Positions 2,665 through 14,347 of a DNA stretch of 32,065 nt are shown here, one piece after another. Position 1 is the stretch's first letter. Each line of letters begins with the position of its first letter. The notes beneath the pieces are model-generated. The model did no database searches and had not been told where the DNA came from. It worked only from the letters and a program-made list of their open reading frames with translations. The position numbers were made by a program, and so were the translations under genes. Source of the DNA: a virus; the IMG/VR virus record IMGVR_UViG_3300042317_001440, positions 1 to 32,065 of that record; one strand, written 5' to 3'.

Positions 2665-2768
2665 TGTATGACATATTCTACAAATGATCACATATGAAGA
2701 TATGGCTCTTCTTTCGACGGCGCACTTTTTTCGCACTTTTTGCACTATACAGGTCTAAATACATTTGC

Positions 2769-2774
2769 TATACT
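2769..2774 (+). promoter_or_regulatory. leaderless-type -10 for the 2781 gene
   Basis: TATACT is followed after 6 bases by the ATG at 2781. This start matches the N-terminus of the related proteins, whereas the upstream ATG at 2694 would add a basic stretch not seen in them. Confidence 0.5.
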
Positions 2775-2780
2775 GTTGTA

Positions 2781-3542
2781 ATGAGTAATATTGAATTTAT
2801 ATCTATGATGCCAGGACTACAAGAGATACAGCAGTGTAAGCCAAAGCCATCAAAGCAGTTTGTGCCGCAATGGTTTAAAGATACCCCAAACATGTTGGAT
2901 CAAAGCCATATGCTTGATGGTCCAGGATCGGCTCAGCTTGGTTCGATTAATTTTCCTTCATCATTTACTGTAAAAATTTGTCCATCTTTTCCAGATTTCT
3001 TTTCTCAAGGCTACGTTCTTCCAATGTGGTGCGACACAGAACTAGGATTCAACGATAAAACACAAGAATTCCTATGGAAGACCTCTAACGAATCATTTGC
3101 TTGGAGCATTCATACAAATAATCAGTTTTTAAAGTGGGCAGACGCAAGCCTACATGGAGATAAAGCAAAGTTTGTATTTAAGGCCGAGTGTCCTTGGAGA
3201 ATTATTACTCCTAAAGGCTGGTCTGTGTTACAGCTTCCAATGTTTTATCATTATAATAAAAACTTTTCAGTCCTCCCTGGTATTATTGATACTGATATAC
3301 ACCATGAAATCAATCAACAGGTTTTGTATCATGGAGGCAATGAAAAAATTACAATTAATCGAGGGGATCCTTTTGTACACTATATTCCCTTTGAAAGAAA
3401 GTCAAAGCTAGGACTTGAGATTAGGGAATTGACTGACATAGACAGAAAACGCTTTCAGAAAAACGAAATGAATATAGCGTCAAAGTTTGTTCCAAATGGT
3501 TTGTATAGGCTATTACAAAGAGAACGAGATAAAAAGAAGTAA
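2781..3542 (+). CDS. DUF6065-like protein, paralogue 1
   Basis: 253 residues from the ATG at 2781. Features shared with the other four copies: an opening strand (IEFISMMPG), the VPQWFKD motif (28-34), a VKIC...GY segment, TPKGW, PGIIDTD, and a final strand of the type GDPFVHYIPFER. The spacing of Gly, Pro and Asp suggests an all-beta barrel. I recall this consensus as the domain of unknown function DUF6065, found in bacteria and phages; that label needs a profile search. Unlike paralogues 2-4 it lacks the HP(L/F)NR-DLPF motif, having FYHYNKNFSVLPG there. It ends 11 bp before a strong terminator and is separated from the tail genes. Confidence 0.7.
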   Translation: MSNIEFISMMPGLQEIQQCKPKPSKQFVPQWFKDTPNMLDQSHMLDGPGSAQLGSINFPSSFTVKICPSFPDFFSQGYVLPMWCDTELGFNDKTQEFLWKTSNESFAWSIHTNNQFLKWADASLHGDKAKFVFKAECPWRIITPKGWSVLQLPMFYHYNKNFSVLPGIIDTDIHHEINQQVLYHGGNEKITINRGDPFVHYIPFERKSKLGLEIRELTDIDRKRFQKNEMNIASKFVPNGLYRLLQRERDKKK

Positions 3543-4172: not shown

Positions 4173-4324
4173 TATTCTTTTACTCCTCCGTCTGTATTAG
4201 GGAAGATTACAGGCATCTTCCAATCGTATGTATTAAATCCAGAAGATTCATATTGAATTTCTTCTGGGGTATTTATTTGAATTCCTTTTCCGCACATACA
4301 ATTGCCACATTCGCAATCTGACAT
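4172..4324 (-). CDS. 50-aa protein with an N-terminal four-cysteine cluster
   Basis: Lies exactly between its neighbours with TAATG overlaps on both sides, which makes it convincing despite its size. Residues 1-14 are MSDCECGNCMCGKG, with Cys at 4, 6, 9 and 11, a compact CxCxxCxC metal-binding candidate. The remainder (about 36 residues) is polar with an acidic start (TPEEIQYE). The four close cysteines could hold one zinc ion or bridge a dimer. No family is recognised. Confidence 0.7.
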   Translation of the reverse strand: MSDCECGNCMCGKGIQINTPEEIQYESSGFNTYDWKMPVIFPNTDGGVKE

Positions 4325-5025
4325 TAGTTGTATTCCTTTCTGTTCCAGTATTTATTTTTATACCAGCCAATAATATGTTTTAAAGATTCGCTACGGGCCA
4401 GCTTTGCTTCAGACAATAAATTTGTATTTCTTTCAAGTTTCCAGGGCTCTGACTTAACAGGTATTATTTGTGCAATTGGAGTTCCAGCCTTAATTATTCC
4501 TTCAAAGCCCATCTTGAGTAAGAACGGCAACTTGCCACCATTCATTGGGTAGTTTGCGTCAACTAGCCCAGACATTGTTCTAAAAGGCAGATCATCTCTA
4601 TTCAAAGGGTGTGTTATTAAAAGGCTGTAGCCATCCTCCACCTTAAGAATTTGTTTTGTGCTCCATGAAAAATGGTTATCGTGAAACCCTTGTGGAATGG
4701 GTAGTGTTGGAATCATGCCCTTGTCTCTTTCAATAACAAAATCAGTTTCTTTGTATTCAGCATCAAAAAAATTCCAACTTATTTTTGGTCCGTTTGGCGT
4801 TTGCTCAACTAAAAAATCAACAGGAGCGGGCATATAATATCCAGTTAAAAAGGCATCCATAAAAGGAGCACAGCTTTTTACTGTTATTGTAGATGGCATA
4901 ATGCTAAGTTTGCCACCAGCAAATTTTTCTATTTTTTTAAACCATTCAGGCATTACGTCTTTCATGTAGCCTATCTGTTCAAAAACTGGATGATAGACAT
5001 GGTGTTCTAATTTTTTAGATTTCAT
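4324..5025 (-). CDS. DUF6065-like protein, paralogue 2
   Basis: 233 residues. Shared family marks: MPEWFKK (about 25-31), VKSCAPF...TGYYM, HFSW, HPLNRDDLPF, SGLVD, FEGIIKAGTPIAQIIP, and a basic aromatic end (NKYWNRKEYN) matching KKRFWQRKVYK and KRLFWKRKKYQ in paralogues 3 and 4. It is closest to paralogue 3 (13670) although encoded on the other strand 9 kb away. It overlaps the upstream gene by 11 bases and the downstream gene by one. The biochemical role of the family is unknown to me. Confidence 0.7.
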   Translation of the reverse strand: MKSKKLEHHVYHPVFEQIGYMKDVMPEWFKKIEKFAGGKLSIMPSTITVKSCAPFMDAFLTGYYMPAPVDFLVEQTPNGPKISWNFFDAEYKETDFVIERDKGMIPTLPIPQGFHDNHFSWSTKQILKVEDGYSLLITHPLNRDDLPFRTMSGLVDANYPMNGGKLPFLLKMGFEGIIKAGTPIAQIIPVKSEPWKLERNTNLLSEAKLARSESLKHIIGWYKNKYWNRKEYN

Positions 5026-5229: not shown

Positions 5230-5781
5230 CTACTTCTTTTCAGTTGTTGGGAATCGCAATAGCCATTCCTGTGCTTTGGGGGTCATACCCTTCCAGCTGG
5301 ACCAATCTTGACCGCCATTGGTCATATAGTACGTTATCTCTGCGTTTGTTACTGGGTCGAATAACTCTTTGTTACTCTTTAGGTTGAATTTCTCTAGTCT
5401 TTCTGGACCGAGATTTCCAATCATGTTTATCTGGAACATTCCATAAGAATGATCTCCAGTGTTCCTATCCCCGTTATATGCAAGCGGTCTTCCGTTAGAT
5501 TCACGCTTTGCTATGGACCAAGCTTTCTTAAGGCCTACTCCTTCGAATCCTACAGTCTTAAGTAGTAATACTAGCTCTTCGTCTGTAAGCATCTCAGATG
5601 GCTTGTAAATTTCTTTACTGAACTTATCTAAGACTTCTTGCTTTAGTTGGGCTTCAGTTTTCACTAAAGGTTTTACTTCTAGTGCATTCACTGGCTGTAC
5701 AGGAAACATAAATAATGTAATCATTACTATTGTAACCATGTTGTGAGCCAGATCACTCACCTGTTGTTTTATTTTCTCCAT
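5230..5781 (-). CDS. secreted lysozyme/transglycosylase-like endolysin
   Basis: 183 residues from the ATG at 5781, which has AGGAGG at the ideal 8-base distance; the ATG at 5787 is only 2 bases from it. Residues about 12-31 are a hydrophobic export signal (MVTIVMITLFMFP) with a possible signal-peptidase site after VNA. The C-terminal half has the SLT/lysozyme-like pattern: AKRESNGR with catalytic-type Glu94, then DHSYGMFQIN (110-119), FDPVTNAEITYYM and WSSW. This enzyme class cleaves the glycan strands of peptidoglycan. Export by the host would let it reach the wall without a holin pore, or with timing by one. It leads the leftward operon. Confidence 0.85.
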   Translation of the reverse strand: MEKIKQQVSDLAHNMVTIVMITLFMFPVQPVNALEVKPLVKTEAQLKQEVLDKFSKEIYKPSEMLTDEELVLLLKTVGFEGVGLKKAWSIAKRESNGRPLAYNGDRNTGDHSYGMFQINMIGNLGPERLEKFNLKSNKELFDPVTNAEITYYMTNGGQDWSSWKGMTPKAQEWLLRFPTTEKK

Positions 5782-5814
5782 TGGCATTTCCTCCTCTAGA
5801 GATAACGAACTACA

Positions 5815-6013: not shown

Positions 6014-7948
6014 ATGTCTAAGACTATTGCAAACCCATATGAAAATTTTATTGCGTTATCAAGATATGCAAGATGGATATCAGAAGATAATCGCCGTGAG
6101 ACTTGGGGTGAGACAGTAGATAGATATTTTAACTTCATGCTTGGCCACTTAGAAAAAAATCATAATTATATTCCAAATGAGAAGCTTGTTGCGGAATTAA
6201 AAGAGTTTGTTTTTGAACGAAATGTAATGCCATCAATGCGTTCTGTTATGACTTCAGGAGCAGCATTGGAAAGAGATAATGTAGCAGGATATAACTGTGC
6301 TTTTCTACCAGTTGATTCACCACGTTCATTTGATGAGACAATGTATATTCTTATGTGCGGTACAGGCGTAGGATTTTCTGTTGAGTATAAGTACATCAAT
6401 AAGCTTCCTGCCGTCCCAGAAACTTTAGAGAAGTCAACTACAGTTATTACAGTAGAAGACTCAAAGCAGGGTTGGGCTAAAGCATACCGTGAGTTGCTAG
6501 CACTACTTTGGTCTGGACAGATTCCAGCAATTGATGTTTCTAAGGTAAGACCAGCAGGGGCAAGACTTAAGACAATGGGTGGAAGATCTTCAGGACCACA
6601 ACCACTTATTAACTTATTTGATTTTACAATTGCAAAGTTTAAGAATGCTACAGGAAGAAATCTAAAGCCAATTGAATGCCACGACATTATGTGCAAGATT
6701 GGTGAAGTAGTCGTTGTTGGAGGAGTTCGTCGCTCAGCAATGATTTCTCTTTCTAATATTAATGATATTGAAATGGCACAGGCAAAGTCAGGTAACTGGT
6801 GGGAAGCAAGTCCACAACGTGCCTTGTCAAATAACTCTGTTGCGTATTCACGCAAGCCAGACATGGAGCAGTTTATTGCAGAATGGAAATCTCTATATGA
6901 TTCAAAATCAGGAGAACGAGGTATATACAATGTGGCCGCAGCTCAAGCCCAAGCAGCCAAGTTTGGTAGAAGAGATCCAGATATACACTACGGAACTAAC
7001 CCATGTTCAGAGATTATTTTACGTCCTTACCAGTTTTGTAACCTTTCAGAAGTCGTACTACGTGAAAATGATACAAATAAAGAAATTGAACGTAAGGTTG
7101 AACTTGCAACTATTCTTGGAACGTGGCAGTCAACGCTTACAGACTTTAAATATCTTCGCAAGATTTGGAAAGACAACACAGAAGAAGAGCGTCTACTAGG
7201 CGTTTCCTTAACTGGACAATTTGGACATAAGTTCATGTCGGGTAAAGAAGACCTTGTTTCATTAGAATCTTTCTTAATGACCCTTAGAGAAAAAGCAAGA
7301 GCAAAGAATAAAGATGAGGCTGGGAAAATTGGGATTCCTGAGTCTGCCGCTATTACATGTGTGAAGCCATCAGGAACAGTATCTCAATTGGTCGGGGTAT
7401 CTTCAGGAATGCATGCTTGGCATTCTCCGTATTATATTAGAACTGTTCGTGGTTCAAAGGGAGATCCAATTTCTACCTTCCTAAAAGAAGTAGGCATTCC
7501 AGTAGAAGATGATGTAATGAAGCCAAACGATACATACGTATTCTCATTTCCAGTAAAAGCACCAGAGGGTGCAATTGTTAGAAATGATCTTACTGCTATT
7601 GAGCACCTAAACATCTGGCTAGTTTACCAACGTGCATGGTGTGAGCACAAGCCATCAATTACAGTTTCTGTAAAGGAAGAAGAGTGGATGGAAGTTGGAG
7701 CTTGGGTATATAAGCATTTTGACGAGGTATCTGGAATTTCATTCCTACCTCATTCAGATCACTCATACAAACAAGCGCCTTACCAAGAGGTAGACAAAGC
7801 AGAATACGATGCACTTGTTGCAAGAATGCCAAAAGATATTCGTTGGGAAGATTTGTCTTTCTACGAAACAGAGGATGGCACATCCACTAATGCTACCCTT
7901 GCCTGCAGTTCAGACGGAAATTGTGAGCTAGTAGACATTTCTGCCTAA
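6014..7948 (+). CDS. nrdJ: adenosylcobalamin-dependent (class II) ribonucleoside-triphosphate reductase
   Basis: 644 residues. Converts ribonucleoside triphosphates to deoxy forms for phage DNA synthesis, using a cobalamin-generated thiyl radical, in the cytoplasm. Visible marks: GYNCAF (Cys95) and YQFCNLSE (Cys342), the redox pair; NPCSEI with Cys331, the thiyl site, and Glu333; and CSSDGNC at the C-terminus (Cys631, Cys637), the re-reducing pair. The 331/342 spacing equals the 408/419 spacing of the Lactobacillus leichmannii enzyme, the model of the monomeric form. That enzyme is about 740 residues, so this is a compact version. The terminal pair has five residues between, against four in the model. 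VGGVRRSAMISL and KPSGTVSQL are further family motifs. It is the only nucleotide-metabolism gene in the window. It needs B12 from the host. Confidence 0.95.
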   Translation: MSKTIANPYENFIALSRYARWISEDNRRETWGETVDRYFNFMLGHLEKNHNYIPNEKLVAELKEFVFERNVMPSMRSVMTSGAALERDNVAGYNCAFLPVDSPRSFDETMYILMCGTGVGFSVEYKYINKLPAVPETLEKSTTVITVEDSKQGWAKAYRELLALLWSGQIPAIDVSKVRPAGARLKTMGGRSSGPQPLINLFDFTIAKFKNATGRNLKPIECHDIMCKIGEVVVVGGVRRSAMISLSNINDIEMAQAKSGNWWEASPQRALSNNSVAYSRKPDMEQFIAEWKSLYDSKSGERGIYNVAAAQAQAAKFGRRDPDIHYGTNPCSEIILRPYQFCNLSEVVLRENDTNKEIERKVELATILGTWQSTLTDFKYLRKIWKDNTEEERLLGVSLTGQFGHKFMSGKEDLVSLESFLMTLREKARAKNKDEAGKIGIPESAAITCVKPSGTVSQLVGVSSGMHAWHSPYYIRTVRGSKGDPISTFLKEVGIPVEDDVMKPNDTYVFSFPVKAPEGAIVRNDLTAIEHLNIWLVYQRAWCEHKPSITVSVKEEEWMEVGAWVYKHFDEVSGISFLPHSDHSYKQAPYQEVDKAEYDALVARMPKDIRWEDLSFYETEDGTSTNATLACSSDGNCELVDISA

Positions 7949-7950
7949 TG

Positions 7951-7984
7951 TGGTAAAATTATAGTATTGGGGTAAGTCCCCCAA
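7951..7984 (+). promoter_or_regulatory. extended -10 promoter followed by a leader hairpin
   Basis: TGGTAAAAT (7951-7959) lies just after the reductase stop. The predicted start point is followed immediately by the hairpin TTGGGG/CCCCAA (7967-7984), which would cap the 5' end of the holin mRNA. There is no T-run, so it is less likely to be a terminator. Confidence 0.45.
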
Positions 7985-8020
7985 AATTCTGGGCACACCG
8001 CTCAAAATGGAGATGATAAT

Positions 8021-8263
8021 ATGGCTATCAAAAAATTTGATAAAGCTGATTTAAATAAAGATGGGAAAGTAACAATGCAAGAACAGATTTTAGCAGCAAT
8101 TGGAACTTACGGAAGAGCATTTTTGGCAGCAGCCACAGCTCTATACATGACTGGCAACACAAATCCAAAAGATTTGATTGCAGCAGGAGTAGCAGCAATT
8201 GCTCCAGTTATTCTAAAGGCTCTAAGCCCAAGTAACAAAGAATTTGGATTTACAAGCAAGTAA
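8021..8263 (+). CDS. holin candidate with an N-terminal EF-hand
   Basis: 80 residues; GGAG lies nine bases before the ATG. Residues 10-21, DLNKDGKVTMQE, fit the canonical 12-position EF-hand loop (Asp1, Asn3, Asp5, Gly6, Val8, Thr9, Glu12), a calcium-binding site. Then come two hydrophobic stretches (about 33-45, AFLAAATALYMTG, and 52-68, LIAAGVAAIAPVILKAL) and a charged tail. Length and topology match small actinophage holins that make membrane holes at lysis. It stands alone between a promoter and a terminator, which also fits a timed lysis gene. Assignment is by topology; an EF-hand in a holin is unusual, and a minor membrane protein of the virion is the alternative. Confidence 0.6.
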   Translation: MAIKKFDKADLNKDGKVTMQEQILAAIGTYGRAFLAAATALYMTGNTNPKDLIAAGVAAIAPVILKALSPSNKEFGFTSK

Positions 8264-8282
8264 TTGTTATTAGATTAGGAGT

Positions 8283-8314
8283 GCCCTTATGGTAAAATAT
8301 CCATAAGGGCTTTT
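8283..8314 (+). terminator. intrinsic terminator with an embedded extended -10
   Basis: GCCCTTATGG (8283-8292) and CCATAAGGGC (8301-8310) are perfect 10-bp arms followed by TTTTCT, ending the holin transcript. The stem-loop also contains TATGGTAAAAT (8288-8298), a member of the window's extended -10 series. A transcript from it would start within the second arm and so lack the hairpin. It therefore appears to end one unit and begin the tail operon. Confidence 0.75.
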
Positions 8315-8330
8315 CTAATTAGGGGTAACC

Positions 8331-8678
8331 GTGGCAGCGCAAAAAAACTTTGAAGTTGATCAAAATACTACTTTTTCATTTGTTATTGACTATACAGATA
8401 ACAATGATGTACCTATAAACCTTTCTGGAGCCACCGCAAAAATGCAGGTTAGAGATACAAAAGGCGGATCTAAATTATCATTTACTTTGACTTCACCATC
8501 TGGCGGAATTACAATTAATGGACCGCTTGGAAGAGTTACATGCACAATGACTCCTGCTCAAACAAGCAAGCTATTTCACCCAAAATCTTCCTACGACATA
8601 ATGATTACAGATAGCAATAATACAAAAACAAAACTTGTTGAGGGATTTTTAACTCTAAGTAGATCGGTAACCATCTAA
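8331..8678 (+). CDS. Ig-like baseplate/tail protein (BppU N-terminal type)
   Basis: 115 residues with a GTG start and AGGGG upstream. The sequence follows the pattern seen in small tail proteins related to the BppU N-terminal domain: a strand (FSFVIDYTD), DVPINLSGATAKMQVRDT, GGITI, GRVTCTMTPAQTSKL, and YDIMIT...LVEGFLTLS. Such domains are beta sandwiches that sit at the start of a fibre or in the baseplate. It opens the structural block and its stop overlaps the next start (TAATG). Confidence 0.7.
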   Translation: MAAQKNFEVDQNTTFSFVIDYTDNNDVPINLSGATAKMQVRDTKGGSKLSFTLTSPSGGITINGPLGRVTCTMTPAQTSKLFHPKSSYDIMITDSNNTKTKLVEGFLTLSRSVTI

Positions 8679-13669: not shown

Positions 13670-14347
13670 ATGAAATTAATCAAGTTTATTCCTTTCATGG
13701 AGGGTAAAGAACTTGTGCGTCCTTCTGTTTCCAAAATACCACAATGGTGGAAAGATGGAGAATCAACAATATTTGACGATAGACCAGGGTTAAAATCCTG
13801 CATACCTTTTATGGAAATAATGAGTTCGGGATACACAATAAATTTACCTTTTGATATTTTTGTTGCAAAATCAGAAGATGGAGATATTACAATTAGGTGG
13901 AATAGCCCTGAAGAAGGGGCTTGGCCAAATTTTGTGGCAGAAAGACCTAAAGAATTAGGAGAAACAATTCCTAGACCAGCAGGACATTCTCCGAATCATT
14001 TTGTTTGGTCACAACAATGGGGATGGAAAACTCCTAAAGGATATTCTAGTATTGTTTGCCACCCATTTAACAGATTTGATTTACCATTTACGACAGTTGC
14101 GGGAATTATAGATTCAGATAAGTTTAACGGAAACGGCAATCTTCCATTTTTTTTAAAAGAAGATTTTCAAGGAGTTATTTATGAAGGAACTCCGATAGCT
14201 ACAATTTTCCCTTATAAAAGAGATAAGTGGCAGTCTTGGTTTGACGATTCAGTAATATCATCTGTTAAAGAAAAACAGTTAAAAGATCTCAGACAGCCTG
14301 GTGGAAGCTATAAAAAAAGATTTTGGCAAAGAAAGGTCTATAAATAA
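13670..14347 (+). CDS. DUF6065-like protein, paralogue 3
   Basis: 225 residues with all family marks: IKFIPFMEG, IPQWWKDG (23-30), LKSCIPFMEIMSSGY, HFVWSQQW, TPKGYS, HPFNRFDLPF, AGIIDSD, FQGVIYEGTPIATIFPYKRDKW, and the end KKRFWQRKVYK. It is the first of three consecutive members (with 14657 and 15334) lying between the Cys-rich fibre and the long fibre at 16472. The fold is probably beta. It has no signal peptide and no obvious catalytic triad. Confidence 0.7.
   Translation: MKLIKFIPFMEGKELVRPSVSKIPQWWKDGESTIFDDRPGLKSCIPFMEIMSSGYTINLPFDIFVAKSEDGDITIRWNSPEEGAWPNFVAERPKELGETIPRPAGHSPNHFVWSQQWGWKTPKGYSSIVCHPFNRFDLPFTTVAGIIDSDKFNGNGNLPFFLKEDFQGVIYEGTPIATIFPYKRDKWQSWFDDSVISSVKEKQLKDLRQPGGSYKKRFWQRKVYK

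Follow-up and report, generated by a model that had tools for sequence, protein, structure and literature searches.

Holin triggering is usually ascribed to holin concentration together with membrane potential. Among described systems, the closest to the phage protein reported here are the class II two-helix holins and pinholins (phage 21 S68/S71; compare mycobacteriophage LysF1a), which are likewise small, have two helices, and take an N-in/C-in topology by charge. Relatives of our protein adjoin endolysin genes, as class II holins do, and the phage 21 holin gene also has two in-frame starts (excerpt of PMC13056207). Our protein differs from class II holins in having no holin-family match, in carrying a calcium-type loop before helix 1, and in being encoded apart from the endolysin. 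A 12-residue loop with one flanking helix, the arrangement found in our protein, is known from dockerin and from the CHAP domain of LysGH15, where the loop ligands are positions 1, 3, 5, 7, and 12; the LysGH15 site, a switch, lies close to the active site within an enzyme domain, whereas in our protein the loop lies on a membrane helix (excerpt of PMC4022735). EndoT5 of phage T5 also carries a regulatory calcium loop on a lysis protein, but it is an enzyme and not a membrane protein (excerpt of PMC10487532); the likeness is that of a loop on a lysis protein, and no sequence relation is claimed. Among the papers listed in searches of the open-access literature, no title or opening of an abstract concerned a holin with an EF-hand.

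A distant relative is encoded by the Actinomycetia phage DSL-LC01, whose stated source is a lake. This protein (WJZ48444; OQ999401.1, 20187-20381) shares 52% identity over residues 16-80 of ours and has an annotated endolysin gene 1.4 kb downstream; it differs in its length of 64 aa, in lacking the loop, and in being annotated as hypothetical. Because of this relative the host of our tailed phage is probably actinobacterial.

The window, by which we mean the whole stretch of 32,065 nucleotides of viral DNA that was analysed, carries the gene among the following features.

5230-5787, minus strand: lysozyme-like protein (SLT_3), candidate lysin (Pfam, conserved context)
6014-7948, plus strand: ribonucleotide reductase, upstream neighbour (185 of 185 testable loop-bearing loci)
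7932-7959, plus strand: sigma-70-like promoter TAGACA-16-TAAAAT with TG (10 of 12 consensus matches)
7967-7984, plus strand: leader hairpin P1, TTGGGG..CCCCAA (stem search, covariation)
7990-8004, plus strand: leader hairpin P2, TGGGC..GCTCA (stem search, covariation)
8021-8263, stop included, plus strand: holin-like protein, 80 aa (ATG start; GGAG at 8009-8012)
8048-8083, plus strand: EF-hand-like calcium-type loop DLNKDGKVTMQE, residues 10-21 (sequence, pattern, conservation)
8075-8077, plus strand: internal ATG in frame, coding for Met19 at loop position 10, candidate second start (loop-less homologues begin nearby)
8087-8149, plus strand: first membrane helix, approximate, residues 23-43 (AlphaFold models, hydropathy, alignment)
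8165-8224, plus strand: second membrane helix, approximate, residues 49-68 (AlphaFold models, hydropathy)
8283-8310, plus strand: intrinsic terminator-like hairpin, 10 pairs then TTTTCT (consensus match)
8331-8678, plus strand: LtfC-like, tail-fibre-assembly-like protein, downstream neighbour (PHROGs matches, Pfam LtfC under cut-off, context)

The open reading frame at 8021-8263 (plus strand), with its GGAG eight bases 5' of the ATG, translates as MAIKKFDKADLNKDGKVTMQEQILAAIGTYGRAFLAAATALYMTGNTNPKDLIAAGVAAIAPVILKALSPSNKEFGFTSK. An earlier sequence-only reading had described the product as a small two-helix membrane protein. AlphaFold modelled helices at residues 19-43/44 and 49-68 and nothing helical N-terminal of the loop, a region of low confidence in which mean pLDDT for residues 1-10 and 11-20 was 45 and 57 in one model and 47 and 64 in another. 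Helix 1 is weakly hydrophobic, with a 19-residue hydropathy maximum of 1.46, helix 2 reaches 1.88, and R32 in the first helix is invariant in the alignment. The 80-aa protein thus shows the general holin trait of a small protein with at least one membrane helix and charged tails. Under the positive-inside rule, charge counts alone from 173 loop-bearing loci (C-tail +3.0/-1.0, turn +0.7/-1.4) would place both the N- and C-terminal tails in the cytoplasm. Searches with the protein matched no curated holin family in Pfam, NCBIfam, or PHROGs, and a curated family for the membrane core was rejected, the matches from these collections being weak, unrelated, and under cut-off. A search for cellular homologues in genome contigs with residues 16-80 gave 459 pattern matches, none of which was confirmed; a PDB fold search gave five matches with nothing useful (best E 8.5), and phmmer against PDB chains returned EF-hand-type loops at weak E values, the best being calsenilin at 0.021.

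Relatives were collected by six IMG/VR scans in which the window protein and proteins related to it served as queries, the best 80 loci of each being kept, so that the sample leans toward near relatives. At least 441 loci were obtained, including the window and DSL-LC01, and at least 237 are unique around the gene. Among the 237 unique loci listed, 185 bear the loop, always 20 codons ahead of a conserved aromatic residue, and 52 lack an intact loop, 4 of them in the ribonucleotide-reductase context and 48 in other contexts. These 48 carry the evidence on function. A same-strand peptidoglycan-hydrolase gene was found within 1.6 kb in 47 of them, at distance 0 from the matched stretch in 31 and within 77 nt in 45; in the exception, L117, the sequence ends 126 nt upstream. 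The eight query hydrolases came from the neighbourhoods of loop-less homologues and of DSL-LC01. Among representatives, neighbouring hydrolases exceeded Pfam cut-offs for CHAP (L085, L084, L098), Peptidase_M15_4 (L111), and VanY (L126, L083), as did the second of two L136 genes for SLT_3, the first being weak; the L123 hydrolase narrowly missed the NLPC_P60 cut-off, and weak Pfam matches came from L162 and the annotated DSL-LC01 endolysin. Foldseek further returned viral structural neighbours named 'Holin', namely both of the first two matches and four of the first seven (A0A6J5T8U2, E 1.9e-3; A0A6J5SKC1, E 1.6e-2), none of the Foldseek matches reaching E 0.001.

On account of the cassette neighbours, the Foldseek names, and the charge-based topology, we regard the family as holin-like. 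Our protein is probably a holin-like membrane protein of lysis-cassette type, a reading to which the cassette context lends strong indirect support, and lysis by the loop-less homologues presumably needs no loop. The holin candidate of the sequence-only reading thus gained relatives beside hydrolases and structural neighbours with holin names, and found no counterpart among curated holin families. In mycobacteriophage F1 cassettes, a two-helix N-in/C-in protein looks more antiholin-like (excerpt of PMC13056207). Separately, another family of small membrane proteins, phrog_25359, has members close to the endolysins of loop-less cassettes (L123:5380-5667 and L126:4745-5014).

Turning to the loop, residues 10-21 (D10 L11 N12 K13 D14 G15 K16 V17 T18 M19 Q20 E21) satisfy EF-hand loop positions 1, 3, 5, 6, 8, 9, and 12, and therein the 12-residue arrangement of ligands at 1, 3, 5, and 12, glycine at 6, and a hydrophobic residue at 8. 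In EF-hands, position 7 serves as a main-chain ligand. The pattern D.[DNS].[DNS]G.[ILVMF]...[ED] matched once in the 36 window open reading frames taken as genes (9443 residues), compared with 0.03 matches on average in shuffles of these frames; in shuffles of the 80-aa protein alone its frequency was 6e-5. These shuffles, together with conservation among relatives, rule out a chance motif. Coordinates, ligand pattern, and shuffles therefore confirmed that residues 10-21, at 8048-8083, fit the key EF-hand positions.

The earlier term "canonical EF-hand" proved right for the 12-residue loop with its ligands, and too strong in other respects. No helix was modelled before the loop by AlphaFold, at low confidence there, so that the site is not a helix-loop-helix. 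Only 9 residues precede the loop in the window protein and 3-14 across loop-bearing loci, with just 3 in 54 of 173. A modelled helix begins at residue 19, which is loop position 10, giving a loop followed by one helix, and the first membrane helix runs on from this exiting helix as a single modelled helix (19-43/44). Pfam EF-hand_5 scored the protein at E 5.5e-5 and 22.9 bits, under its cut-off of 25.9, and reached E <= 0.1 in 32 of 52 loop-bearing members. The PROSITE signature PS00018 requires a hydrophobic residue where the 80-aa protein has Q22, and so it found no match. The loop is therefore an EF-hand-like "loop-F helix" and not a full helix-loop-helix.

We further found that the ligand positions are under constraint. 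No change was seen at D10, G15, or E21 in 106 distinct coding sequences or in a set of 167, while N12 and D14 vary only by D/N exchange in one locus, L110, whose loop, DLDKNGKVTEME, combines an N/D and a D/N exchange and preserves the ligands. The test proposed at the outset, conservation of Asp10, Asn12, Asp14, and Glu21, thus came out in favour of the loop in loop-bearing homologues, with L110 as the only departure. On a core-DNA tree of the 167 distinct loop-bearing sequences, loop positions 1, 3, 5, and 12 underwent 0, 1, 1, and 0 amino-acid changes against 2, 19, 11, and 22 codon changes. Pooled, this makes 2 amino-acid changes per 54 codon changes, compared with 25 in 96 at the non-ligand positions 2, 4, 7, 9, 10, and 11 (Fisher p 3.4e-4, taking parsimony counts as independent, with position 1 contributing 2 codon changes). 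The first 45 core positions averaged 3.5 amino-acid and 25.7 codon changes. Because many membrane-core positions are equally invariant, the telling contrast is the one within the loop and that with the freely varying tail before it.

The loop is restricted essentially to one clade. In a protein tree of 105 distinct cores minus the loop, taken from the first 165 unique loci and thus without L394, L442, and L443, the loop-bearing rows and L137 formed one group (95/95), with L137 placed beside the loop-bearing L110 at weak support (93/76). L137 and L394 lie in the ribonucleotide-reductase context and have no loop; L442 and L443, in the same context, carry DLKQNGLLEMQE in its place, with the position-3 ligand lost, and are the only loci with a recognisable degenerate loop. 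Two changes are needed on both trees, and therefore gain and loss of the loop are not distinguishable. Homologues lacking the ligands, which the sequence-only reading had named as evidence against its proposal, do exist (48 loci in other contexts and 4 in the same context), whereas the loop-bearing clade keeps its ligands; since such homologues exist, the loop is a clade-specific add-on, inessential to the family. In the alignment, the loop-less relatives keep the same core as loop-bearing members.

The reading we tentatively favour, at a rough probability of 0.4, is that of a small two-helix holin-type lysis protein whose N-tail carries an EF-hand-like loop-F calcium site on helix 1 and whose gating is triggered by lesions. 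Free calcium in the bacterial cytosol is very low. As long as the host membrane is intact, the loop would accordingly face very little internal calcium and would be empty and flexible. The first lesions would let outside calcium flow in, upon which the calcium-loaded loop would fold and cap helix 1, the open or assembled state would be stabilised, and lysis would follow abruptly. That calcium leads to gating is our proposal, and from the sequence we infer that the loop may bind calcium and that this may affect lysis.

A constitutive structural cap is possible, if doubtful. Here the loop would hold calcium, magnesium, or no ion and stabilise the N-terminus of helix 1, with lysis timing independent of calcium. 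Such a cap would suit the shared core of the loop-less relatives, the fixed distance at which the loop adjoins helix 1, and the low confidence with which the loop is modelled; however, a helix cap does not obviously need the retention of positions 1, 3, 5, and 12 with a ligand-preserving exchange.

The inner start inside the loop bears on another alternative. In 173 of 173 loci, loop codon 10 is ATG or GTG or loop codon 11 is ATG, and a Met stands at that place in 12 further loci, included in the 185, for which the start chooser took the inner ATG. These 12 have no Met ahead of the loop; TTG is available there in the four whose DNA was inspected. In these loci (L344, L349, L358, L370, and eight more), the loop-bearing form seems to be TTG-started, with ATG as the inner codon. 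Loop-less homologues, such as the 61-aa protein of L085, start within a few codons of the inner start in the alignment, and two products from one frame are possible. Scored against the anti-Shine-Dalgarno letters, the Shine-Dalgarno-like stretch before Met19 had a mean of -7.5, compared with -2.8 at background internal ATGs of the window; 39% of synonymous draws on average matched it in strength, and because the peptide sequence explains most of it we did not count it as evidence.

It is conceivable but unlikely that the short, 62-aa form begun at Met19 is the holin, while the long product, charged and carrying the loop, acts as an antiholin or lysis inhibitor whose effect calcium either lifts or enforces. 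The conserved inner start, its position near the beginnings of loop-less homologues, and the 12 loci without a Met before the loop would fit this arrangement, and dual-start holins with a charged N-terminal antiholin extension are known from phage 21 (excerpt of PMC13056207). Against it, the peptide sequence predicts a Shine-Dalgarno-like stretch almost as strong as the one observed, and loop position 10, with 4 amino-acid changes on the tree, shows no special constraint, not having fewer than several other non-ligand positions.

Promoter-like and terminator-like consensus matches suggest that the holin-like gene stands as a separate unit. In 7700-8500, 4 promoter-like sites were found, compared with 2.3 expected in shuffles, and 4 terminator-like sites, compared with 0.8. 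Between the promoter and the ribosome site, two hairpins were present in 56 of 61 leaders (near-copies of more than 85% position identity removed), compared with 8% of shuffled leaders. Compensated double changes occupied 30 alignment cells, compared with 4.3 in shuffles; further pair types, one of five measures, did not stand out (12 versus 10.4). MAFFT with RNAalifold recovered hairpin P2 alone, and for this reason a stem search run on each sequence, together with a specified structure, was used to score P1. A covariance model of the leader matched strongly at the holin-like leader in 11 of 11 records, the next-best match elsewhere having E 0.0036, and found no match in four loop-less cassette loci. 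Three Rfam matches, far under gathering scores, were taken as chance. The leader hairpins may tune translation or mRNA life. One could further imagine a calcium-gated dual-product switch, in which the loop was captured upstream in-frame with the old start kept, one mRNA yields a long form that senses calcium and a short plain holin, the leader tunes the ratio of the two, and calcium entering through the first lesions turns the long form from brake into partner; we consider this improbable.

The surroundings of the loop-bearing gene are constant. Besides the ribonucleotide reductase, the neighbours include the LtfC-like gene downstream (169 of 169 testable loop-bearing loci) and, upstream, the lysozyme-like SLT_3 gene (163 of 163). 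The SLT_3 protein, found in all 14 loop-bearing records searched, has a signal-peptide-like N-terminus (by eye and hydropathy), with a hydrophobic N-terminal stretch in 128 of 176 homologues at a threshold set in the analysis, and could serve as a second lysin. The search with the cassette hydrolases found no homologue within 1.6 kb at any of 189 ribonucleotide-reductase-context loci, some of which are cut shorter, so that the cassette link of the loop-bearing gene is by homology only. The loop-bearing phages have a CHAP endolysin with 46% identity to the L085 cassette endolysin and matches to PHROGs endolysin families. Of 14 loop-bearing records, 12 contain a homologue of it, separated from the holin-like gene by 34-76 kb in record coordinates, and in 8 of the 14 CHAP reaches the Pfam cut-off.

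Each of 15 records has one member of the holin-like family. Near four of the CHAP genes, 1.5 kb to each side, there is no same-strand open reading frame of at least 50 aa with a 19-residue hydropathy above 1.6. Among 17 loop-bearing records, 4 encode a phrog_25359 protein. The CHAP gene was located in just one of these 4, G006, where the phrog_25359 gene is about 0.3 kb away from it and its product could act as the holin. Elsewhere in the window, three proteins match phrog_7084 (2694-3539, plus strand; 4324-5025, minus strand; 13670-14344, plus strand).

A membrane protein outside lysis, serving superinfection exclusion or linked to the ribonucleotide reductase or tail genes, might be read from the gene's place between these neighbours in all testable loop-bearing loci and from the distant CHAP homologue in the 12 records having one, but it is very improbable in view of the loop-less relatives, 47 of 48 of which adjoin hydrolases of several types, the gene's own promoter-like and terminator-like signals, and the holin names of its viral structural neighbours.

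Calcium control in phage lysis has been described for enzymes, EndoT5 and LysGH15. The family has hundreds of matches in IMG/VR contigs, and its loop-bearing, loop-less, and loop-degenerate members provide natural controls within it. Fused to a helix of holin type, a conserved calcium loop would offer a sensor for lysis triggering that is open to direct test.
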